DNA from: Acidobacteriota bacterium
GTDB lineage: Bacteria; Acidobacteriota; Terriglobia; Bryobacterales; Bryobacteraceae
Direction of reading: 5' to 3'
Length of the DNA: 45,426 bases
Assembly (NCBI GenBank): GCA_021787555.1
Contig: JAJYLS010000004.1
Location: 4,353 to 49,778, forward strand
Below are positions 3,727 to 30,699 of the stretch, in pieces (within the stretch, counting starts at the first letter, position 1; each line of letters begins with the position of its first letter). The position numbers and the translations under genes were made by a program. The notes under the pieces were generated by a model. It was given only the letters and a program-made list of their open reading frames with translations, did no database searches and was not told the origin of the DNA.

Positions 3727-5274
3727 CTAGAGGTTCTTGAGAAGCGCCAGGACGGATTGCGGCTCCGCATTGGCCTGGGCCATGGCCGCGATGGATGCCT
3801 GTTGCAGCACCTGCGCCTTGGTCAGGTTGGCCGCCGCCTCCGCGACGTTGGCGTCGCGGATCTGCGATTCGGCCGAAGAAAAGTTCGTGATCTGCGACTG
3901 CGCCAGGTTCATGGCGTAGTTCATCATGTTCATGCCCGCGCCGATCTTGCCTTGCACCAGGCCGAGTTTCCCCACCGCCGCGGTGATCGCGTCAATGGCG
4001 GCCAGGGCGTTTCCGGTGGCCGAGGCGCTGGAGGTAATCGCCGGCGCAGCATACGCGCCGGTCGCCTGCGCCGACGCGCCGAAGCCCGTGTCGCCGGTGC
4101 CCCCACCCGCGGCGGCCGTGCTGGCCGTCTCCACCGCAGTGAAGGTCCCCGAGGACTGGAACGAAAGCGTCCCGTTGACATCCAGGGCGCGAATGTTCAC
4201 CCCCGCCTGCTCGAAGGTCGTATTCAGGTTGTTGATCGCGGTACTCTCGCTGGACGCCGTCGTGGTATTGAAGGTAAAGTTCACGGAGTTGCCGCTCCCA
4301 TCGGTGAACTGGACCGTGTCCGTCGGAGCGGTGCCGCCGCCGGTCGCGTAGCCCGCGAACGCTCGGGCACCTTGGGTGTTATAGATCCCCGAGTTGACCA
4401 GCGTCATGGTGCTATGGCCGGTGTTGTCCACAGCCGCGTTCGCCGTGCCAGTGGTCGTGACCGTGAACGCGCCGCTGCCGACGAACTGCAGCATTCCGTC
4501 GCTGCCAATCTGGGCCGTGATGCCGATCCCCTGCGAAGTGAAGCTGGCGTTGAGGTCCGAAACGACCTGCGCGCCCGTCTTGCTGGCACTGCCGGTGTAG
4601 CTGACCGTGGCCGAACTTGCCACGCCGTTACCGTTGATGTAGTTAACGGTGAAGGACTGGCTGGCGCTGAACACGGAGGCAGGGTTGTCGAGCCGCGCGT
4701 TAGTGGCGCTGGCGAACTCCACGCCGCCGCCCAGGACCGAGCTTGTACTGATCCCCAGCGCCTCCGAATCCACCTTCGAGGTGCTCAGATCCACGCTGAC
4801 CATGGCATTCGAGTTGGTGGCATTGGTCGAGTTGCCTCCGCCGATGTACACCTTCATGTCGGTGGCCAGGCTGCCGCTCGAATCCAGCTTGATATTCTGC
4901 GCCTGCCGGTTGATTTCCGTCAACAGCGACTGGTACTCGTTGTTCAGCGTGCTGCGGTCGCCGGTGAAGGTGGTCGTGGCAGACTGCGTTGCCAGGGTCT
5001 TCAGCCGGTCCAGCATCTGCGAAATGTTGCTCAGGCCGCCGTCGATGATCTGCAACTGCGCCAGGCCGTCGTTGGCGTTGGCCACGCCTTGCGTCAACTC
5101 CGCCGTCTCGTTCCGGTATTTGTTCGCCACCGACAGGCCGGCGGCGTCGTCCGCCGAGGAGTTGATGCGGTAGCCGGAGGTCAACTGGTTAATGGTCTTG
5201 CTTTGAAACGCGCTGTTGACCTGCAAATTCTGCTGGGCCGTCAGCGAATCCACGTTGGTTTGAATGGAAAGCAT
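3727..5274 (-). CDS. fliC: Flagellin
   Basis: A 515-residue flagellin, the secreted filament subunit. The N-terminal D0/D1 region (about 1-140) is canonical: SIQTNVDSLTAQQNL, LTSGYRINSSADDAAGLSVA, then ANDGLAQLQIIDGGLSNISQMLDRLKTLA. The C-terminal D1/D0 helices (about 430-515) include VQGKIGAGMNMMNYAMNLAQ and RDANVAEAAANLTKAQVLQQA, ending in LLKNL. The variable middle holds two flagellin-IN-like modules (around residues 205-265 and 315-375) rich in Ser, Thr and Gly. No separate sigma-28 promoter is visible directly upstream, so it is probably read from the operon promoter at 8045-8071. The 61-base leader after csrA carries two CsrA-type GGA elements, listed separately, which suggest translational control by the neighbouring CsrA/FliW pair. 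Confidence 0.97.
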   Translation of the reverse strand: MLSIQTNVDSLTAQQNLQVNSAFQSKTINQLTSGYRINSSADDAAGLSVANKYRNETAELTQGVANANDGLAQLQIIDGGLSNISQMLDRLKTLATQSATTTFTGDRSTLNNEYQSLLTEINRQAQNIKLDSSGSLATDMKVYIGGGNSTNATNSNAMVSVDLSTSKVDSEALGISTSSVLGGGVEFASATNARLDNPASVFSASQSFTVNYINGNGVASSATVSYTGSASKTGAQVVSDLNASFTSQGIGITAQIGSDGMLQFVGSGAFTVTTTGTANAAVDNTGHSTMTLVNSGIYNTQGARAFAGYATGGGTAPTDTVQFTDGSGNSVNFTFNTTTASSESTAINNLNTTFEQAGVNIRALDVNGTLSFQSSGTFTAVETASTAAAGGGTGDTGFGASAQATGAYAAPAITSSASATGNALAAIDAITAAVGKLGLVQGKIGAGMNMMNYAMNLAQSQITNFSSAESQIRDANVAEAAANLTKAQVLQQASIAAMAQANAEPQSVLALLKNL

Positions 5275-5280
5275 TGTGTC

Positions 5281-5290
5281 ACATCCTGTT
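5281..5290 (-). promoter_or_regulatory. CsrA-type site over the flagellin Shine-Dalgarno
   Basis: Read on the minus strand this is AACAGGATGT, matching the ACA-GGAUGU core of the CsrA consensus (RUACARGGAUGU). Its AGGA is also the only plausible Shine-Dalgarno for fliC, 9 bases before the ATG, so bound CsrA would block ribosome access. Confidence 0.65.
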
Positions 5291-5301
5291 TGGTTGAGAT
5301 T

Positions 5302-5316
5302 GCGGCGTCCTGCCGC
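5302..5316 (-). promoter_or_regulatory. CsrA-type hairpin-loop site in the flagellin leader
   Basis: On the minus strand the sequence folds as GCGGC-AGGAC-GCCGC: a perfect 5-bp stem presenting GGA in a 5-base loop, the preferred form of a CsrA target. It lies 24 bases upstream of the Shine-Dalgarno-overlapping GGA, a spacing that would allow one CsrA dimer to bridge both sites. Confidence 0.6.
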
Positions 5317-5335
5317 GCGCCGGCCGCGCCGGCGT

Positions 5336-5617
5336 TCAACTCTTCATATCGGCCTCTCGCGGCGGAGCTTGAATCGCCAGTTCCTCCAGCCGCCATTCCC
5401 GGGCCCCCACCCGCGTTCCGGCACGGTTTGCCGCCAGCGACCCGGCGGCCGCCAGGTTCTGCTCCCGCGTCTGCCGGGCCTCCGCTCGCATCACCGGAAT
5501 CTCCTTGGGCGCCCGGATCCCCAGCTTGACCCGGTTGCCGCCGCACTCCATCACCTCGATTTCCACGGCGCCGCCGATCAGAATCGATTGCCGGGCGTGC
5601 CGGCGGATCACGAGCAT
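5336..5617 (-). CDS. csrA: Carbon storage regulator / flagellin translational repressor CsrA
   Basis: A 93-residue RNA-binding protein. Residues 1-50 match CsrA: MLVIRRHARQSILIGGAVEIEV, then the conserved block KLGIRAPKEIPVMRAE that contributes the RNA-binding arginine. CsrA dimers bind GGA elements in mRNA leaders and usually block translation. Most CsrA proteins have 60-75 residues; this one has an unusually long tail (about 30 extra residues, Ala/Arg/Glu-rich). In FliW-containing bacteria a C-terminal extension of CsrA contacts FliW, so the tail may serve that purpose (inference). The ATG lies inside the end of fliW (10-base overlap) with GGAGG upstream. The adjacent downstream gene is its likely target, fliC. 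Confidence 0.93.
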   Translation of the reverse strand: MLVIRRHARQSILIGGAVEIEVMECGGNRVKLGIRAPKEIPVMRAEARQTREQNLAAAGSLAANRAGTRVGAREWRLEELAIQAPPREADMKS

Positions 5618-6078
5618 ACCGCCTCCAGATGCCGGGCCGCCTCCGCCTCCGGGACCAGCGGTTCGCTACACCCGTAGCGCCCGTCCGGCCGGATGGCCTG
5701 CACCGCGCGCCGCGTGCGCATGTGAATCACGATGGGCCCCAGCAGGTTGACCGTGGGATCGCGGCCTTCCACCAGCGAAACGAGGGCCAGCGCCACGGCG
5801 TCTTTTCCGATCGCCGGCTGGCGTACGAACCCCAGCAGTTCGCGGTCCTCGGCCGAAAGCGCCAGTTCATAATCCGGCCGCACGGTGCGCACCGGCAGCG
5901 CCGGGAAGCACAGGTCCGGGCGGTCCAGGCTTTGCAGAAACACCAGCGCCGGACGGGCGGGGTCGTGCAGCGGCACGAAACGGTGCTGGTCCTCGAAGCC
6001 GGGCAGCCCCTCGGGGAATACCAAAGCCCCGGATTCAGTCACCGTCAGCGGCCCGAAATGCGCGCTCACAAACGTCAT
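5608..6078 (-). CDS. fliW: Flagellar assembly factor FliW
   Basis: A 156-residue protein of normal FliW length. Family features are LVFPEGLPGFEDQHRFVPL near the N-terminus, CFPALPVRTVRPDYELALS in the middle, and the VNLLGPIVIHMRTRRAVQAI block (about residues 108-130). FliW binds free cytoplasmic flagellin. When flagellin has been exported, FliW instead binds CsrA and relieves its block on flagellin translation (established in Bacillus subtilis). The ATG overlaps the motB stop as ATGA, and the 3' end overlaps csrA by 10 bases, so motB, fliW and csrA are translationally linked. The order fliW-csrA-fliC puts sensor, repressor and target in a row. Confidence 0.95.
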   Translation of the reverse strand: MTFVSAHFGPLTVTESGALVFPEGLPGFEDQHRFVPLHDPARPALVFLQSLDRPDLCFPALPVRTVRPDYELALSAEDRELLGFVRQPAIGKDAVALALVSLVEGRDPTVNLLGPIVIHMRTRRAVQAIRPDGRYGCSEPLVPEAEAARHLEAVCS

Positions 6079-6866
6079 TGGCTTTTCCCCTGGGGCGCCG
6101 GGCCCGGAGGGCGCCCCGGTTCGGAAAGCAGCCCCTCCGCGCTCAGCAACACCACGTCCACACGCCGGTTATGCGCCCGCCCCTCGGGGGTCGCGTTGCT
6201 GTCCGATGGCGCGTTTTCGGCGTAACCGGCCACCGCCATCCTCCCCGGCGGGATGGCGTAGCGCTCCGCCAGCACGTCCAGCATGGCGATGGCACGCGCC
6301 GCGGAAAGCTCCCAGTTGCTGCGGAAGCGCGAATTGTGGATGGGCACGGAATCGCTGTGCCCTTCGAGACGCACCTGGTTGGGCAGCCTGGAAATGACCG
6401 CCGCGATCTTGGCCAGGGTCGGAAAACTCCGCGGCGCCACGCTATCGTCGCCCGAGGCGAAAAAGGCGGCTTCCCGCAAGCTGATCACCAGACCGCGGCC
6501 CTCCAGCCGCAACTGCACCTTGCCGGCCTTCAACTCCATCGCAAGCTCCTGTTGCAGCGTGGCCAGCGACTGCTTCAGATCGGCCACCGGCGGGGCCACG
6601 GGAGTCGGCGCCGCATCCGCCGCAGGCTTTGCCGGTGCTTTGGTGTCATGTTTCGTGCGTCCCAGGACCACCGAAATGGCATTGCTGAGCTGGCCGCGCT
6701 CCAGGGCATTGCGCACCGCTTCGGAAACCTGCCGGGCTTTGTTCTTGTCCTGATGCGCGGTGGCGAACATCACCACGAAAAACGCGAACAGCAGCGTGAT
6801 AAAGTCCGCGTAGGACACCAGCCAGCGCTCGTGATTCTCGTGGGCTGCCGCGTGGTGCCGTTTCAT
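6075..6866 (-). CDS. motB: Flagellar motor stator protein MotB
   Basis: A 263-residue inner-membrane stator protein that anchors the motor to peptidoglycan. One N-terminal membrane helix (about residues 16-38, WLVSYADFITLLFAFFVVMF) contains Asp21 in the SYADF motif, the proton-binding residue. A Pro/Ala linker follows (about 75-95), then an OmpA/MotB peptidoglycan-binding domain (about 120-245) with VRLEGHSDSVPIHN, NWELSAARA and NRRVDVVLL. The start overlaps the motA stop (ATGA) and the stop overlaps the fliW start in the same way. The membrane Asp and ordinary proton-type sequence suggest a proton-driven motor, but the coupling ion cannot be settled from sequence alone. Confidence 0.95.
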   Translation of the reverse strand: MKRHHAAAHENHERWLVSYADFITLLFAFFVVMFATAHQDKNKARQVSEAVRNALERGQLSNAISVVLGRTKHDTKAPAKPAADAAPTPVAPPVADLKQSLATLQQELAMELKAGKVQLRLEGRGLVISLREAAFFASGDDSVAPRSFPTLAKIAAVISRLPNQVRLEGHSDSVPIHNSRFRSNWELSAARAIAMLDVLAERYAIPPGRMAVAGYAENAPSDSNATPEGRAHNRRVDVVLLSAEGLLSEPGRPPGPAPQGKSQ

Positions 6867-7762
6867 GCCTCTCCTCCGGCCGGAGCGCCGCGTTCCGCCC
6901 TGCCCGCACCCTTCTTCGGCTGCGGGTTGTAGGCCTCCAGCTTCATGCGGATCAGCGTGGGGTTGAGTCCCTCGACGATTCCCACCACGCCATCGAGCGT
7001 CATTTCCTTCAGCACCGAGGCCTGCCGCATGCGCGCCCGCAGCTTGTTGGCGGCCGGCAGAAAGAAGATGTTCGCGCTGCCCACGCCGTAGACCGTGGCC
7101 ACAAACGCCACGGCGATGCCATGCCCCACTTCTTTGATGTCTTCCAGGTGCTTCATAACCTGAATGAGTCCCAGCACCGCGCCGATAATTCCGATGGTCG
7201 GCGCGTATCCTCCGGCCGCTTCCCAGACCTTGGCTTCGGACTCCGCCGCCTGCTCGCCCAGGCTGATCTCTAACTCCATCATCTTGCGGAGTTCCTGGAG
7301 ATCCGTCCCATCCACCGCGAGATTCAGCGCCTTGCGCAGGAACGGATCGGCGATACGGGCGGCCTCCATTTCCAGGCTGACGATGCCGTTCTTGCGCGCC
7401 CGCGTGGCGAACTGGATGAGCGATTCGATGGTCGCCGAAGCCAAGCTGGCGCGTTCGAAAAATACCGCGTTCAGCCCCTTCAGGGCCCGCAGCACGATAG
7501 GCAGAGGCGTAGTCACCAGGACCGCGCCGAAGGTCCCGCCGAGCACGATCATAGCCGCGGTGGTCTGGGCGATGTCCTGGATCTTGCCCTTCTCCAGCAG
7601 CAGCCCGCCGAGAATTCCCGAGAGCGCAATGGCAATCCCGGCCAGCGAAGCAATGTCCGGCCGGAGCCCTCCATGGCCCGCCGCCTTGGACCCGGTAACA
7701 CCGGATCGCGCGGCACCGGAGGCCGCCGGTTCAGTTTTGGGAGCTGCCGCGCTCGCTGCCAT
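6863..7762 (-). CDS. motA: Flagellar motor stator protein MotA
   Basis: A 299-residue four-helix membrane protein that, with MotB, forms the ion channel driving flagellar rotation. Helices lie at about 36-56 (DIASLAGIAIALSGILGGLLL), 68-88, 186-206 (APTIGIIGAVLGLIQVM) and 217-238. The conserved proline of helix 3 sits in YAPTIGIIG. The cytoplasmic loop between helices 2 and 3 (about 95-180) holds the charged residues that contact FliG. An Ala/Ser/Gly-rich extension of about 33 residues precedes the first helix and is longer than usual, so a later start is possible, but no other in-frame ATG offers a better site. The ATG is 5 bases after flbD; the stop overlaps motB (ATGA). Confidence 0.94.
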   Translation of the reverse strand: MAASAAAPKTEPAASGAARSGVTGSKAAGHGGLRPDIASLAGIAIALSGILGGLLLEKGKIQDIAQTTAAMIVLGGTFGAVLVTTPLPIVLRALKGLNAVFFERASLASATIESLIQFATRARKNGIVSLEMEAARIADPFLRKALNLAVDGTDLQELRKMMELEISLGEQAAESEAKVWEAAGGYAPTIGIIGAVLGLIQVMKHLEDIKEVGHGIAVAFVATVYGVGSANIFFLPAANKLRARMRQASVLKEMTLDGVVGIVEGLNPTLIRMKLEAYNPQPKKGAGRAERGAPAGGEA

Positions 7763-21699: not shown

Positions 21700-23799
21700 C
21701 TAGTCCCCGAAGCTCCCCACTTCCTCGCGTTCTTCGACCTGCTGCTCCGCCGCCGGTTGCATTCCGCCGATCTGCACCAGATCCGGCTGGGGCGGCTCCT
21801 TCATCACGTGCTGCCGGTAGAGCTTCGCCATGCGCTCATTTTCCTGCTGCTGCTTGAGCTTCGCGTCGCGCGCCCGGATCTTCTCCTCGCGCGCGTTCTT
21901 GGCGATCCCCAGCCGGTCCAGGTCGTGCTGCTCCTCGGTCGTCACGATCTCGTCGCGCAGCACCAGCCGGTGCTCTTTGCTGTGTAGCGGCACCTGCTTG
22001 CCCCCGGCGAAAATTTCGTGCCGCCCGTGCTCCTCGTACCACCTGGTCAGTGTGGCCGTCATGTGCATCTTCTCGATGATGTTGCGCCACCCGATCCCCG
22101 TGTTGTACGCGCAGAACGAAATCTCGCCTTCCTGCGTGGCGTACGGAATGATGCACTGCTCCGTCCGCCGGAAATCGTAATTGAACAGGTCCTGAAACCA
22201 CATGCCGGCGATGAACAGGAAGTTCCACCGGTCGCGCCGCCGCTGCTCGATGTCCCCCATGGTGCGGGTTTTGCCGACGTTGCCGTAGCTCTTCCCGGTG
22301 GCGCCGAAAGTCTTGTCCAGCTTCTTGTACCAGTCGCTCAGCTGGAAATGCGTGGGTGACATGAAAGGATCGTAATTGCGCGCCGCCGCCAGCGCCATCC
22401 CCACGATCGAAAGCCACTTGCCCCGCGCCGCGTCGTTGATGCGCGCTACGTCCTTCGCCAGCCGGTCGGCGTTGATGAACGCCGTCACCGGCACCTTTTC
22501 GCCGGTCTCCTTGTCCACCATGATCGCCATCCCCACGCCGCAGTTCGGATGGCAGCCGCAGCTCAACTGTCCCCAGCCGTAGCTCGGCCCGTGCACCAGG
22601 TCGCTCCAGTCGGAAAACGTGGAAATGAACGAAATCGGGAACCAGTCGCGCGCCGGCTCGCCGATCCCAAGCTGGTTCTTCACGTCGTGCGCCAGGTGCG
22701 ACAGCGTATACCGCTGCGCCGCGCGCCGCTCGTCGGTAATGGCTTCATCGCGCCCGGTGAACGACACCGGCTGAAACGAGAGGAACGGAATCTTCTTCGG
22801 GTTGTCCAGCGCGAACTGGACGATCCGGCCCACCTGCTCGTTGTTGATCCCGTTCACAATCGTGATCACCGGGATGATGTCCACGCCCGCCGTGTGCAGG
22901 TTCTCTATGGCCCGCAGCTTCACGTCGAACAGGTTGCCCACCTTGCGGTGCTGGTTGGCTGCGTTCCCGATGCCGTCGAATTGCAGGTATGCGTACCGCA
23001 GCCCGGCGTCCGCCGCCCGCTTGCAGAAATCCACGCTCTTGGCGAACTCGATGCCGTTGGTCGCCGCCTGCACCGAAGTGTAGCCCACCTCGCGCGCGTA
23101 CCGCACCGCGTCGACGAAATACGGCGACAGCGTCGGCTCGCCGCCCGAAAACTGCACCGACATCTGCCGCTTCGGCTTGATCGTGATGGCATTGTCCAGC
23201 AGCGCCTTGATGTCGTCCCAGCTCAGCTCGTGCACGAACCCCACCTGGTTGGCGTCCATGAAACACGGATCGCACATCATGTTGCAGCGGTTGGTCAGGT
23301 CGATCGTCAGCACCGACCCGCGCCCGTGCGTGATCGTGCTTGACCCGTGCCGGTGCAGCCGGGAATCGTTGTGCGCCCGGATGTCGCGCCCCGGAAATAC
23401 TTCTTCCAGGTGCCTGAAGAATTTCGTATCGATGGCCATCACATCTTCGAAATGGCCATGGATCGGGCAATCCTTCACCATCATGATCTTGCCGTCGCGC
23501 TCCACGATCTGCGCCTTGATCTCGCCCGGCCGCTGGTTGTAAAGTACGTCCAGCGGCGTTTCGCCGTCCAGAATCTTCTTACGGATTTCCGGCACGCACT
23601 TCGGGCACAGGGAGTCCGTTTCGCGCGGCCAGCCCAGCGGCGGCTTCATTTTCTCCCACGATTTCAGCAGCGGCTTCTCCGACCATGCCGGAACGAATCC
23701 GGGATTCTGGCGAATCTGGTTGAGCTTGTCGAAAACGAACCACGCGGCCCCCGCGGCATAGGTAAACGCCTTCTCGGCGTATTTGATCGGTTTATGCAT
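21700..23799 (-). CDS. Radical SAM protein of the tetraether-synthase (Tes/MJ0619-like) group
   Basis: A 699-residue iron-sulfur enzyme. An N-terminal Cys/His unit (Cys65-x2-Cys68, SLCPKC; Cys111-P-x-His114-G) resembles the rubredoxin-like iron site of archaeal Tes. The radical SAM core has Cys172-x3-Cys176-x2-Cys179 (CNMMCDPCF) and SGGEP (218-222). Further cysteines (414, 416, 420 in LSCGCHPNCG; 549 and 563 in the QCIIPYA...SFCAYN block) fit auxiliary Fe-S clusters. Tes couples lipid tails into membrane-spanning chains, and relatives do so in bacteria. Acidobacteria are known for membrane-spanning iso-diabolic acid and branched tetraethers, so that role is likely but inferred. Residues about 590-665 add a charged coiled coil (EEKIRARDAKLKQQQENERM) and a Gln/Glu-rich tail. 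The ATG at 23799 follows GAGGGAG and AGAGAG. It stands alone, with no other lipid gene nearby. Confidence 0.82.
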   Translation of the reverse strand: MHKPIKYAEKAFTYAAGAAWFVFDKLNQIRQNPGFVPAWSEKPLLKSWEKMKPPLGWPRETDSLCPKCVPEIRKKILDGETPLDVLYNQRPGEIKAQIVERDGKIMMVKDCPIHGHFEDVMAIDTKFFRHLEEVFPGRDIRAHNDSRLHRHGSSTITHGRGSVLTIDLTNRCNMMCDPCFMDANQVGFVHELSWDDIKALLDNAITIKPKRQMSVQFSGGEPTLSPYFVDAVRYAREVGYTSVQAATNGIEFAKSVDFCKRAADAGLRYAYLQFDGIGNAANQHRKVGNLFDVKLRAIENLHTAGVDIIPVITIVNGINNEQVGRIVQFALDNPKKIPFLSFQPVSFTGRDEAITDERRAAQRYTLSHLAHDVKNQLGIGEPARDWFPISFISTFSDWSDLVHGPSYGWGQLSCGCHPNCGVGMAIMVDKETGEKVPVTAFINADRLAKDVARINDAARGKWLSIVGMALAAARNYDPFMSPTHFQLSDWYKKLDKTFGATGKSYGNVGKTRTMGDIEQRRRDRWNFLFIAGMWFQDLFNYDFRRTEQCIIPYATQEGEISFCAYNTGIGWRNIIEKMHMTATLTRWYEEHGRHEIFAGGKQVPLHSKEHRLVLRDEIVTTEEQHDLDRLGIAKNAREEKIRARDAKLKQQQENERMAKLYRQHVMKEPPQPDLVQIGGMQPAAEQQVEEREEVGSFGD

Positions 23800-24038: not shown

Positions 24039-25232
24039 TTACTGCCCCACGCGCCAGGGAGACACATCGGGCCAGCTTCGCAACGCCTCCTCTGCCCACT
24101 TCGTCGACTTATCCCTGTGGCAGCCGTTGCAAGCATTGGGGATGCCCAGCCGCTCCGTTTCACGGGGCGGAATAAAACGAAATGTGTGGCTGCTCACGTT
24201 CACATCGGCGATGGTTTGTTCCATGCGCGGCATGTGGCAGCCGATACACTGGCTGCCGCTCGATCCCGCCTTGTGGTGCGTGTGCTGTTCGATGGTCGCC
24301 GCCCGCGGCCCGTTCGGCGAGCGCGGCCCGTGGCACTCCAGGCACAGCACGTTCGCCGGCCGGAGGAGGTCGGCGTCGTTCGACGTGCCGTGCACGTCAT
24401 GGCAACTGAAGCAGGCCACCCCGCGCGTGTACATCAGGCTGGTCACGAAATCGTTGCCCTGCATCCGGTTCTTGTGCGCCGTCCCGTCGGCGAAATGCGT
24501 GAACGTCGTCTCTCCGAGTTTGTGGTCTTCCAGCCGCCAGAAGTTCTTCAACTCGCGCCCCGCCTGGAACCCCACCGGCCAATCGAAATACTTGCCGCCG
24601 ATCGGGTTCTCCAGCGGCCGTCCCTGCGAGTGGCATTGAATGCATACGTCGTTGGCGCGGACGAAATCGAGCCGCGCGGGGTTCACGACATTCGCCGCCG
24701 AAGGCCGCGCGGCGTGCTCGCTCCCCGGACCGTGGCACTTCTCGCAGCCCACGTTCCACTCCGTCACGGTCTTGGTCCGGATATCGTAATTCACCGAGTG
24801 ACAACCGTCGCACAGCGGCCCTGTCGGCCGTTGCATGTTGTCCGGTGGGTACAAGCCCGCCCACCAGTCCGCCCCCTGGCGAACGAAGTAAGGGCGCCAC
24901 ACCTTATGCGTTATGTCCCATTGAGCCGGAAGTACGTAATAGTCGTCGCCCACTTTCTTGAAGTATCGCTGCTTCCACTTGCTGCCGTAGACCAGCGCGA
25001 TGTCTTCCCGCTTGAACGTGACCAGCGGATCGGGCCTGCTGAGATCCGGAATGATGGCGTCGGGGTGCTCGCGCGGATCGCGCACCACGTTGGCCATGCG
25101 GGTGTGCTGCCAGCGCTCATAGATCGCCGCATGGCACCCCTTGCACGCGGCGGAACCAATGTACCGCGCCTGCCCCCAAACCCACGCCGGAGCGGCGACG
25201 AATAACAACAGCGCGGCGGCGTACCGTGGCAT
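24039..25232 (-). CDS. Exported octaheme c-type cytochrome
   Basis: A 397-residue periplasmic electron-transfer protein. The signal peptide is MPRYAAALLLFVAAPAWVWGQA. There are eight CxxCH heme-attachment motifs, at Cys30, 141, 163, 197, 274, 297, 329 and 368. The long gap between the first and second holds a beta-rich segment (VYGSKWKQRYFKKVGDDYYVL) and conserved aromatic residues, as in cytochrome c-552/c-554-like proteins. The C-terminus (ACNGCHRDKSTKWAEEALRSW) matches a family that often continues into TPR repeats, which are absent here. Its ATG follows the upstream kinase by 8 bases, with the GAGAGGG Shine-Dalgarno overlapping the kinase stop, so translation is coupled. Multiheme proteins of this kind act in respiratory reduction of nitrogen or sulfur compounds or metals; the substrate is unknown. 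Confidence 0.88.
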   Translation of the reverse strand: MPRYAAALLLFVAAPAWVWGQARYIGSAACKGCHAAIYERWQHTRMANVVRDPREHPDAIIPDLSRPDPLVTFKREDIALVYGSKWKQRYFKKVGDDYYVLPAQWDITHKVWRPYFVRQGADWWAGLYPPDNMQRPTGPLCDGCHSVNYDIRTKTVTEWNVGCEKCHGPGSEHAARPSAANVVNPARLDFVRANDVCIQCHSQGRPLENPIGGKYFDWPVGFQAGRELKNFWRLEDHKLGETTFTHFADGTAHKNRMQGNDFVTSLMYTRGVACFSCHDVHGTSNDADLLRPANVLCLECHGPRSPNGPRAATIEQHTHHKAGSSGSQCIGCHMPRMEQTIADVNVSSHTFRFIPPRETERLGIPNACNGCHRDKSTKWAEEALRSWPDVSPWRVGQ

Positions 25233-27770: not shown

Positions 27771-29288
27771 TCAATGCCGAAAAACGAAAACGAATGGGAG
27801 ACACGCGAGCGTGAGAACGCCGAGCAGCCGGAAATCGTCCACGTAGGCCCAGAGCGTCGCCTGCTGCAACAGCATGTGGTAGATTTCGCCCAGCGCCTGC
27901 GCCGACGTCAGGCCCATGTGATCGAGGAGCCTAAGGGTGTGCTCGTATATCAGGCTCAACGGCGTTAAATCGCCCACCATGTCGGCCTGATGCGTTTGCG
28001 AACCGCGCGCCAGCATCGTGGCCACCATGGAAATCCCAAAACTCGCGCCGATGTTGCGTAAGAGATTGTAAAGCCCCGTGCCGCGGCTAATCAGCGCCTT
28101 CGGCAGCGTCTCCATCGTCATGGTGGTCAGCGGGACGAACAGGAAACCGTTGGCGAAACCGTTTACGATGTTAGGCCACACGATGTTCCCCAGGCCCGCC
28201 GAAAGATTCAGGCCCCCAAGCATGAACAGCGATGTCGCGCGGATCACGATGCCCGTACAAATCAGAATGCGGCCGTCCACCCGTCCCACCAGCCGCGCCG
28301 CAATAATCATGGAAGCAATCGCGCCGATTCCGCGCGGCGATACAGCCAGGCCGCTCTGGTACGCCGGAAAGCCCAATAGGTCCTGGAGAAATAGTGGCAG
28401 CAGCGCCGTGGTCCCGTAGATCACCACCCCGATCAAGCCGATCAAAAACGTTCCCACCGCGAGATTGCGGTCCTTCAGCACGCGCAGGTCGACAATGGGA
28501 TCGTCCGTCCGCAACTCCCGAATGATGAAAGCCGCCAGGAATACCACCGATGTCACGGCGAACCAGCGGACCCACGTGGCGCCGAACCAGTCCGCTTCCT
28601 GCCCCTTGTCCAGGATCACCTGAAGCGCCGCCAGCCAGACCGCCAGAAATCCCAGCCCCAGAAAATCGATGCGCCCCTGCCGCGACCGCCGCGCGTAAGG
28701 CGGATCTTCCACGAAAGTCTGGATCATGAGCAGGGCGACGAGCCCCACCGGCACGTTGATGTAGAAGATCCACCGCCAGGAGTAATTGTCCGTGATCCAC
28801 CCGCCCAGCAAGGGGCCCACCAGTGGCGCCACGATGATTCCCATTCCGTAAACCGCCATGGCCGTGCCCCGGCGCTCGCGCGGAAAGCTCTCCAGCAGCA
28901 CCGCCTGCGAGACCGGTTGCAGCCCCCCGCCCGCGGCTCCCTGGAGCACCCGCGCCGCGATCAGCATTCCCAGGCTCGTGGCCGCGCCGCACCACATCGA
29001 AGCCAGCGTGAACACCAGCACCGAAAGCAGTTGGTATTGTTTCCGCCCCAGGAAGTTGCCCAGCCAACCCGACGTGGGCAGCACGATCGCGTTCGAGATC
29101 AGGTAACTGGTGAGAACCCAGGTCGCTTCGTCGGTGGTGGCCGAAAGGTTCCCCGCGATGTGCGGCAGCGCCACCGTGGCAACCGAGGTGTCCAGGACCT
29201 CCATGAAAGTGGCCAGCATGACCGAGGCTGCAATCAGCCACGGGTTGAAACTGGCCTGCCACTCCGAGTCCGCCGTGAGCGAACTCAT
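27771..29288 (-). CDS. DHA2 family MFS multidrug exporter (EmrB/QacA type)
   Basis: A 505-residue inner-membrane transporter of the length expected for 14-helix drug:proton antiporters. Family markers include LDTSVATVALPHIAGNL (motif D1 in helix 1), TSYLISNAIVLPTSGWLGNFLGRK (motif A), and RVLQGAAGGGLQPVSQAVLLE followed by YGMGIIVAPLVGPLLGGWI (motif C, the antiporter motif). Helices continue to the C-terminus. It probably expels hydrophobic toxic compounds using the proton gradient. No MarR/TetR repressor and no EmrA/TolC partner is adjacent. The ATG overlaps the stop of mtaB (ATGA), so both are in one transcript; 163 bases separate it from the downstream kinase. The C-terminal end (LACLPFVFVFRH) looks complete. 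Confidence 0.92.
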   Translation of the reverse strand: MSSLTADSEWQASFNPWLIAASVMLATFMEVLDTSVATVALPHIAGNLSATTDEATWVLTSYLISNAIVLPTSGWLGNFLGRKQYQLLSVLVFTLASMWCGAATSLGMLIAARVLQGAAGGGLQPVSQAVLLESFPRERRGTAMAVYGMGIIVAPLVGPLLGGWITDNYSWRWIFYINVPVGLVALLMIQTFVEDPPYARRSRQGRIDFLGLGFLAVWLAALQVILDKGQEADWFGATWVRWFAVTSVVFLAAFIIRELRTDDPIVDLRVLKDRNLAVGTFLIGLIGVVIYGTTALLPLFLQDLLGFPAYQSGLAVSPRGIGAIASMIIAARLVGRVDGRILICTGIVIRATSLFMLGGLNLSAGLGNIVWPNIVNGFANGFLFVPLTTMTMETLPKALISRGTGLYNLLRNIGASFGISMVATMLARGSQTHQADMVGDLTPLSLIYEHTLRLLDHMGLTSAQALGEIYHMLLQQATLWAYVDDFRLLGVLTLACLPFVFVFRH

Positions 29289-30607
29289 TCTATAGACGCC
29301 TGGTCCGCCTGGTCCTTAATAGACCCCTCTTTCAGGCCCACGGCCGTGACCTCGCCGATCTCCAACTCCACCAGCCGGTTCGTCTCGCGGCATCGCGCCA
29401 TTTCCACCTTCAAATAATTGGCCGTCAGCGCCGCGCCCGCCTCGTGCAGCGTCACCGCCGAAAGCGTGCGCCCCACCATGCGCTCGCGGAACGCGCGGTT
29501 CTTTTCCGTCGCCAATTCCCGCAGCACGCGGTTGCGCTCCTTGCGCACCGCCATCGGCACCGAATCGGGATCCGCGGCAGCCGGCGTACCCGGCCGCTCC
29601 GAATAAGTGAACGCGTGCAGGTAAGTGAAGGGCAAGGAAGCGATGAACCGCCGGTTCTCCTCGAAATCCTCGTCCGTCTCCCCCGGAAACCCCACCATCA
29701 CGTCCGCGCCGATGGCCGCGTCCGGCATCAGCGCCCGCGCCCTTAGAATGCGGTCGGCATAATGCCGCGGCCGGTACTTGCGGTGCATCCGCCGCAGGAT
29801 GCGGTCGCTGCCGGTTTGCAGCGGCGCGTGCACGTGCGGCGCAATGCGCGGCGATTCCGCCATCAGCCCCAGCAAATCGTCCGAAAAATCCATGGGTTCC
29901 ACCGAGCTCAGCCGCAGCCGCTCGACATCCGTTTCCGCCAGCAGCAGCCGGATCAGATCCGCCAGCCGCATCCGGCTTCCCGGCTCCCGTCCCCAGCGGC
30001 CCAGGTTGATGCCGCTCAGCACGATCTCGCGGTACCGCCGCGCCAGCCCGCGCACCTGCTCCACCACCGGCTCCGCCGGCGCGCTCCGGCTCCTTCCCCG
30101 CACGAACGGAATAATGCAGAACGAGCACCGGTTATTGCACCCGTCCTGAATCTTCAGGTTCGGCCGCGTGCGGTCCCCCGCCGCATCTTCCACCGGCGCC
30201 GAGAGAAAATCGTGCTGCGCGAAAATGTCGCCCACGTGAATGTTCCCGTGATACGGCGCCGCGCCATTCCCGTCGATCCTCACCAGCTCCGCAATCTGCG
30301 TCTTGTGCGAATTGCCCACCACCCACTCGACGCCCGGAAGCTGCGCCAGTTCCTCCGGCGCCCGCTGCGCGTAGCATCCGGTCACCAGGATGCGCGCCGC
30401 CGGGTTCTCCCGATGCACGCGCCGGATCGTCTGCCGCACGTCATCGTCCGCCGCCGAAGTCACCGTGCACGTGTTCAGCACCACCAGGTCGGCGGCCGGC
30501 CGCTCGCCGGTCTCTTCCATTCCCTTGGCGGCCAGCAGCGCTTCGAGCGCCGCGCCGTCCGCCTGCGCCGCGCGGCAGCCGAAATTTTGCACGAAGAACT
30601 TGGTCAC
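29285..30607 (-). CDS. mtaB: tRNA (N6-threonylcarbamoyladenosine-37, C2) methylthiotransferase
   Basis: A radical SAM/Fe-S enzyme converting t6A37 to ms2t6A37 in tRNAs reading ANN codons. The N-terminal UPF0004 domain carries its three cluster cysteines in FVQNFGCRAAQADG, LNTCTVT and VTGCYAQ. The radical SAM domain contains CNNRCSFC (C-x3-C-x2-C), then FVRGRSRS and GYREI-like RYREIVLSGINLGRWG; HAPLQTGSDRILRRMHRKY is family-typical. The C-terminal portion (about 380-440) is a short TRAM-like domain. MtaB rather than MiaB or RimO is inferred from FGCRAAQAD and the QTGSDRILRRM block. I prefer GTG at 30607 (440 residues) since homology begins at once. ATG at 30688 would add 27 unconserved residues and leave only 11 bases to the divergent gene. 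Confidence 0.9.
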   Translation of the reverse strand: MTKFFVQNFGCRAAQADGAALEALLAAKGMEETGERPAADLVVLNTCTVTSAADDDVRQTIRRVHRENPAARILVTGCYAQRAPEELAQLPGVEWVVGNSHKTQIAELVRIDGNGAAPYHGNIHVGDIFAQHDFLSAPVEDAAGDRTRPNLKIQDGCNNRCSFCIIPFVRGRSRSAPAEPVVEQVRGLARRYREIVLSGINLGRWGREPGSRMRLADLIRLLLAETDVERLRLSSVEPMDFSDDLLGLMAESPRIAPHVHAPLQTGSDRILRRMHRKYRPRHYADRILRARALMPDAAIGADVMVGFPGETDEDFEENRRFIASLPFTYLHAFTYSERPGTPAAADPDSVPMAVRKERNRVLRELATEKNRAFRERMVGRTLSAVTLHEAGAALTANYLKVEMARCRETNRLVELEIGEVTAVGLKEGSIKDQADQASIE

Positions 30608-30699
30608 TCTATTCTCATTATGCGCGACGATCTGCGCGCCCCGCGCCGCGACGTTTCTGTAACCGCTGAACCCGCTCGCGCGTCTCATCTGCCAAGCCC

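Follow-up and report, generated by a model that had tools for sequence, protein, structure and literature searches.

The window, the whole 45,426-nucleotide stretch of acidobacterial DNA analyzed here, encodes a radical SAM protein of the tetraether synthase (Tes) lineage with a long C-terminal tail. We suggest, at a probability of roughly 0.7, that this tailed protein is a derived and aerobe-associated Tes-lineage member, the membrane-spanning-lipid synthase of many Acidobacteria, and that it makes iso-diabolic acid. Near presence throughout the class, often as the only gene of its kind in a genome, makes it the leading candidate for synthesis of this lipid. Tail-to-tail coupling of iso-C15 chains is the most likely reaction because the residues tied to coupling are kept, and because of the distribution of the gene and its linkage to canonical Tes.

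The predicted protein has 699 amino acids, starts with ATG, and shows a strong coding signature (GC3 of 0.88 vs GC2 of 0.40; table 1). Pfam matches are to Radical_SAM (E=9e-19) and, in residues 58–122, to the HMPTM zinc ribbon (E=2e-13), named after an earlier functional guess for MJ0619. The nearest curated family is Tes (NCBIfam NF045702; 311 bits, E=1e-92). The score falls short of the 450-bit cut-off, as do those of all tailed-family members listed in our phylum and class surveys. The second-best model is TrsS (NF045646; 204 bits), but membership is rejected given its cut-off of 490 and the outgroup position of TrsS in the tree. In a phmmer search against all PDB sequences, the sole strong match is 7tol (GDGT-MAS of M. 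jannaschii; E=2e-62, residues 94–587). Orthologs across Acidobacteria are 74–86% identical to the window protein; the best 80 named matches are all acidobacterial, and the closest (85–86%) are from Bryobacteraceae/Bryobacterales and Terriglobia MAGs, which marks the source of the window as a relative of Ca. Solibacter usitatus in subdivision 3. Internal stops flagged in some orthologs are, in those re-read, ordinary C-terminal stops that the homology search overran.

Table 1. Features of the tailed gene, its paralog, and other genes in the window (window positions unless a contig or locus is given).
Feature	Position	Strand	Evidence or remark
Tes-family radical SAM protein, tailed acidobacterial variant	21700..23799	(-)	ORF, Pfam, NCBIfam Tes, PDB 7tol
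N-terminal helix, residues 3–29	23713..23793	(-)	AlphaFold2, block pLDDT 90–95; moderate hydrophobic moment
Rubredoxin-type Fe site C65, C68, C111, H114 (= MJ0619 C9, C12, C33, H36)	23458..23607	(-)	Ligand columns, Pfam HMPTM ribbon
Lost N-terminal [Fe4S4] cluster: CPxxCGxCxxH replaced by HxHGSS (residues 149–154)	23317..23373	(-)	Alignment
Radical SAM motif CX3CX2C (C172, C176, C179)	23263..23286	(-)	Pfam, alignment
CGCHPNC: C420 = MJ0619 C338 (C-terminal cluster); C414, C416 extra	22540..22560	(-)	Alignment
C-terminal [Fe4S4] cluster and catalytic residues: M533 (M439), C549 (C455), Y553 (Y459), C563 (C470)	22111..22203	(-)	Alignment
C-terminal tail, residues 600–699; charged helix 636–664, REEK...MxxLYRxxVLxE, terminal GD	21703..22002	(-)	AlphaFold2, motif count, hydrophobic moment
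Canonical Tes paralog	G000:C118:19218-20645 (L013 6976-8730)		NF045702, 574 bits
Multihaem cytochrome c (paired CXXCH, decaheme-like)	24042-25205	(-)	Upstream of the Tes-like gene, same strand
MtaB tRNA methylthiotransferase	29285-30688	(-)	Above curated cut-off
Flagellin, FliW, MotB, and MotA genes, together	3727-7762	(-)	

Three of the four metal sites of MJ0619 are conserved. Ligands and residue roles described for MJ0619 (PMC9433317) were mapped onto an alignment of acidobacterial relatives, and every cysteine motif named in an earlier, sequence-only reading of this gene is present: CPKC (C65, C68), CPIHG (C111, H114), CNMMCDPC (C172, C176, C179), CGCHPNC (C414, C416, C420), and the pair C549 and C563. 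The rubredoxin-type CX2C...CX2H site is kept with an insertion of ∼20 residues. SAM-loop residues Q343, S346, and R350 (MJ0619 Q268, S271, and R275) are also kept; Q343, R350, and the radical SAM cysteines are invariant. The C-terminal cluster (C420, C549, C563, and the labile M533) and the catalytic Y553 are retained. The site that is lost is the N-terminal auxiliary [Fe4S4] cluster, whose ligands (MJ0619 C73, C77, C80, and H83) correspond to R147, H151, S154, and T157 in the window protein. These ligands are missing in 45 of 45 tailed-family rows, which have HxHG[ST]S instead; the sequence-only reading did not remark on this loss. Among canonical rows, C77, C80, and H83 occur in 31 of 31 plus MJ0619, C73 occurs in six of six rows of a separate alignment, and CPxxCGxCxxH is visible in every row printed. 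C414 and C416 are invariant in the tailed family, and most canonical relatives have one of them at most; they may provide an added or replacement ligand of the C-terminal cluster. The earlier identification as Tes is right about lineage, but this is not a straightforward Tes, given its score of 311 bits against 450 and the loss of one of four metal sites. Because a surface Fe–S cluster is lost in a mostly aerobic lineage, we hypothesize that its loss is an adaptation to oxygen. If so, the N-terminal cluster of Tes would be dispensable for coupling.

Phylogeny places the tailed family within Tes. Acidobacterial relatives sort into clades A (long tail), A′, B, and C (canonical Tes), as well as the more distant TrsS and group D; members of clades A′ and B are without the long tail and also without the N-terminal cluster. 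In an IQ-TREE tree of 76 rows rooted on TrsS and group D, the tailed family and Tes are split from TrsS and group D at 100/98 support. Clades A, A′, and B together form one clade (100/100) on a stem of 1.3 changes per column, clade A is itself one clade (100/100), and the larger clade branches within canonical Tes, where its sister is a set of MAGs. Forcing canonical Tes into one clade is only mildly rejected (p-AU 0.034); derivation from Tes is therefore likely, with some residual probability left to a sister relationship. The window protein groups inside Tes and not with an unrelated radical SAM clade, and the rooted tree, together with fold and sequence matches to GDGT-MAS alone, bears out the Tes/MJ0619 lineage first proposed for it. 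The long stem and the lost cluster would nonetheless leave room for a new substrate. Group D (L196-L207, L215) is a further Tes/TrsS-like acidobacterial radical SAM group, several members of which have IPFDTYN or IPFDTFN at the position of the Tes FCxYN and are thus without that cluster cysteine. Two members of clade A′ (L054 and L057) have no tail and end in a short, cysteine-rich C-terminus, GCGCH.

The tail distinguishes clade A. In the window protein 136 residues follow FC563 vs 32–45 in canonical Tes relatives, so the extra, charged C-terminal region noticed in the sequence-only reading is real and amounts to ∼95–105 additional residues. Its description as a coiled coil finds no support and gives way to a single charged helix (residues 636–664; pLDDT about 63–73), as predicted from the AlphaFold2 model and an analysis of hydrophobic moment and heptads. 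The hydrophobic moment of this helix is low and its heptads are irregular; a predicted disordered linker then leads to the final GD, which is conserved. The motif MxxLYxxxVL occurs in 78 of 80 named and 48 of 52 other members of clade A and in none of 18 members of other clades (four A′, seven B, and seven C); the tail therefore arose on the stem of A. At the other end, helix 3–29 is aromatic and hydrophobic with lysines, is without an equivalent in MJ0619, and possibly contacts the membrane. The AlphaFold2 model (mean pLDDT 70.8, pTM 0.76) derives from a shallow alignment and is weak around the metal sites. A Foldseek search with the model returned 7tol/7tom as the only significant matches (E=5e-22), and in VIA-align the match to GDGT-MAS (Z of 20.9 over 436 residues) is followed, among families listed, by MoaA (13.6 over 252). 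The protein as modeled has the GDGT-MAS fold.

The window genome also encodes a canonical Tes (584 amino acids, 574 bits) with all four metal sites, to which the window protein is 34% identical over 534 residues. A HemW-like radical SAM gene follows the canonical gene on the same strand. Elsewhere in this genome, two proteins combine BcrAD_BadFG and DUF2229 (G000:C475 and G000:C201; L084 and L085) and are, by domain content only, PlsA/Ger-like candidates for ester-to-ether lipid conversion. The set is similar to that of Solibacter, for which two Tes homologs and a PlsAR homolog are reported. A conserved operon around the tailed gene is rejected, as no conserved neighbor was found in 81 loci and the commonest flanking family, QueG-like, occurs in just 16 of them. 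In six genomes selected for holding both types (L236, L239, L244, L241, L237, and L069), however, tailed and canonical genes are neighbors on the same strand with the tailed gene upstream, separated by about 0.2 kb in two genomes and by several kb in the rest. At these loci, canonical Tes is often followed by a small gene for a putative lipoprotein. In another acidobacterium (G184; L238 5181-10183), a Ger/PlsA-like gene comes immediately after canonical Tes on the same strand. The two adjacencies therefore tie three genes to one pathway.

The tailed family is near-universal in class Terriglobia, often as the sole such gene. With a threshold of E<=1e-70, 381 of 399 class genomes have a Tes-family match and just 50 have one above the canonical cut-off. 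Scores against the Tes model are bimodal, about 470–620 bits for full-length canonical proteins and about 300–350 bits for the tailed family. Genomes examined include those we take to be A. capsulatum, Terriglobus saanensis, Koribacter versatilis, Luteitalea pratensis, and Chloracidobacterium thermophilum. The finished genomes taken as A. capsulatum, T. saanensis, and Granulicella mallensis each have one match in the class survey at the search threshold, with a tailed-family score, and that taken as Koribacter has two. The tailed type is also alone in Acidipila rosea, Granulicella aggregans, and strains KBS 83 and ZG23-2. A DUF2229 protein is absent from all six genomes taken as A. capsulatum, T. 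saanensis, G. mallensis, Koribacter, Luteitalea, and Chloracidobacterium. The identity of the G. mallensis survey genome agrees with PMC3910553 (Table 3).

Across 247 phylum genomes, hand-assigned to groups from search tables, the tailed family tracks aerobic respiration and canonical Tes tracks Ger-like genes. DUF2229 is present in 10 of 10 genomes with both genes, 11 of 18 with canonical Tes only, 16 of 108 with the tailed family only, and 27 of the 111 with neither type. The difference between both-gene and tailed-only genomes is significant (Fisher 5e-8) in a test that ignores shared ancestry, with both-gene genomes drawn from three families. Subunit I of aa3-type oxidase is present in 108 of 118 genomes with a tailed-family gene vs 76 of 129 others (10 of 18 for canonical only), again with shared ancestry ignored.

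Iso-diabolic acid was not reported from Acidobacteria subdivisions 8, 10, and 23. Where reported, it makes up 12–30% of the fatty acids of Edaphobacter, in six strains (PMC11354219), is present in A. capsulatum, where brGDGTs are absent, and occurs as tetraesters in Koribacter (PMC13274423); it is also found in Chloracidobacterium (PMC12816986) and in Pyrinomonas (P. methylaliphatogenes; PMC4644332). The distribution of the tailed family fits these reports, a correlation that is phylogenetically confounded since each trait characterizes most of the class. E. aggregans, a low-level maker of brGDGTs, has one Tes homolog at 32% identity (PMC8941075), which fits the tailed type and is probably of that type. 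Ca. Solibacter usitatus is a proven producer of brGDGTs, in which "one or both" Tes homologs may act (PMC10087280). The sequence-only reading had made the gene a strong candidate for synthesis of branched tetraethers. Its link to the brGDGT question is sound, but assigning tetraether synthesis to this gene is an overstatement because finished genomes of iso-diabolic-acid makers with only the tailed type are without Ger/PlsA-like genes and A. capsulatum is reported to be without brGDGTs, and because a canonical Tes, the type statistically tied to Ger-like genes, is encoded in the window genome as well.

We propose the following steps, by analogy with MJ0619. The radical SAM cluster (C172/176/179) would cleave SAM, and the resulting 5′-dA radical would attack an iso-C15 acyl chain of a membrane phospholipid, taking a hydrogen from its terminal methyl. 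The carbon radical would stay bound to the C-terminal [Fe4S4] cluster (C420, C549, and C563, with the labile M533) until attacked by a second activated chain, yielding membrane-spanning chains of 13,16-dimethyloctacosanedioic (iso-diabolic) acid. The surface N-terminal cluster has been discarded, possibly as an adaptation to oxygen. Docking, either at the membrane or to a partner protein or complex, may be the role of the charged tail together with the N-terminal helix. The ether bonds of brGDGTs need separate Ger/PlsA-like enzymes, candidates for which the same genome encodes, and the ester or ether fate of the product would be set by Ger-like or other ether-forming enzymes.

Other assignments are less consistent with these patterns. 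Canonical Tes could form the C–C bond of brGDGTs and leave an accessory lipid step (chain methylation, unsaturation, or ring formation) to the tailed protein. Such a division would explain why Ger/PlsA-like genes track canonical Tes (10/10 with both vs 16/108 with tailed only), why canonical Tes directly precedes a Ger-like gene in L238, albeit in one genome, and why tailed and canonical genes can adjoin, as expected of partners. However, most sampled Acidobacteriaceae genomes, including those taken as A. capsulatum, T. saanensis, and G. mallensis, are without canonical Tes at the threshold used, yet iso-diabolic acid is reported there, and the catalytic residues of coupling are intact in the tailed family; we regard an accessory role as improbable. 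The acid could also come from an unrelated or distant enzyme of the Thermotoga Mss type, making the presence of the tailed protein coincidental. A second coupling family does exist: T. maritima is unmatched by the Tes model at the threshold used, and its Mss reportedly produces membrane-spanning lipids in E. coli (work cited in PMC11604127). Mss matches are nevertheless sparse in Acidobacteria, occurring in 11 of 97 MAGs (PMC11868695), against a near-universal tailed protein in the class that retains all residues of MJ0619 tied to C–C coupling, and this origin is very unlikely.

A neofunctionalized enzyme acting on a different hydrophobic or a non-lipid substrate, with the lost cluster, stem, and tail as marks of changed chemistry, is similarly improbable. 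The stem length of 1.3, scores of every listed member well under the Tes equivalog cut-off, loss of [Fe4S4]N with gain of C414/C416, and the absence of conserved gene neighbors in 81 loci are all as expected of such a change. Against it, the tailed family has kept M439, Y459, the C-cluster ligands, and Q268/S271/R275 of MJ0619, the match to the GDGT-MAS fold covers nearly the whole chain, and the distribution agrees with reports of iso-diabolic acid.

Synthesis of iso-diabolic acid by the tailed protein, as we prefer, bears on branched GDGT palaeothermometers, which rest on lipids of unproven acidobacterial biosynthesis. Finished genomes of iso-diabolic-acid producers with the tailed type alone, at the search threshold, reduce the question to one gene. 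Conceivably, though we hold this to be doubtful, the tailed Tes became an aerobic form by shedding its exposed auxiliary cluster and gaining a helix and tail for docking to membrane or partner, and makes ester-linked iso-diabolic acid in oxic soils, with canonical Tes and Ger making ether-linked brGDGTs where oxygen is low. In that case the reported effects of oxygen on brGDGT production would stem from a pair of enzymes that differ in their oxygen requirement. One diagnostic motif (CPxxCGxCxxH vs HxHG[ST]S) separates the two Tes homologs and, if this reading holds, gives metagenome surveys a means to tell ester-type from ether-type producers.

Among known systems, TrsS, a radical SAM (seleno)protein (NF045646), differs from the window protein in falling in the outgroup across the 100/98 split. 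Mss of T. maritima, compared by description, is alike in its proposed reaction, which would couple a pair of fatty acyl tails within phospholipids, and reportedly has the same catalytic architecture as Tes (PMC13274423); at the threshold used, the Tes model has no match in this species. Canonical acidobacterial Tes homologs, including the paralog in the window genome and those reported from Koribacter and Solibacter (PMC8941075), share the tree lineage. Unlike the window protein, the paralog has four metal sites, reaches 574 bits, and belongs to a type found together with Ger/PlsA-like genes. Relative to archaeal Tes/GDGT-MAS (MJ0619; 7tol/7tom; NF045702), the window protein lacks the N-terminal auxiliary cluster and has in addition two invariant cysteines, the rubredoxin insert of ∼20 residues, an N-terminal helix, and a tail of ∼100 residues; its Tes score is 311 bits against a cut-off of 450. 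The two proteins share a fold over 436 residues at 27–28% identity, the radical SAM core, the rubredoxin site, the C-terminal [4Fe-4S] cluster with a labile Met, and the catalytic Tyr. By analogy, the window protein would catalyze sp3–sp3 coupling of lipid tails.
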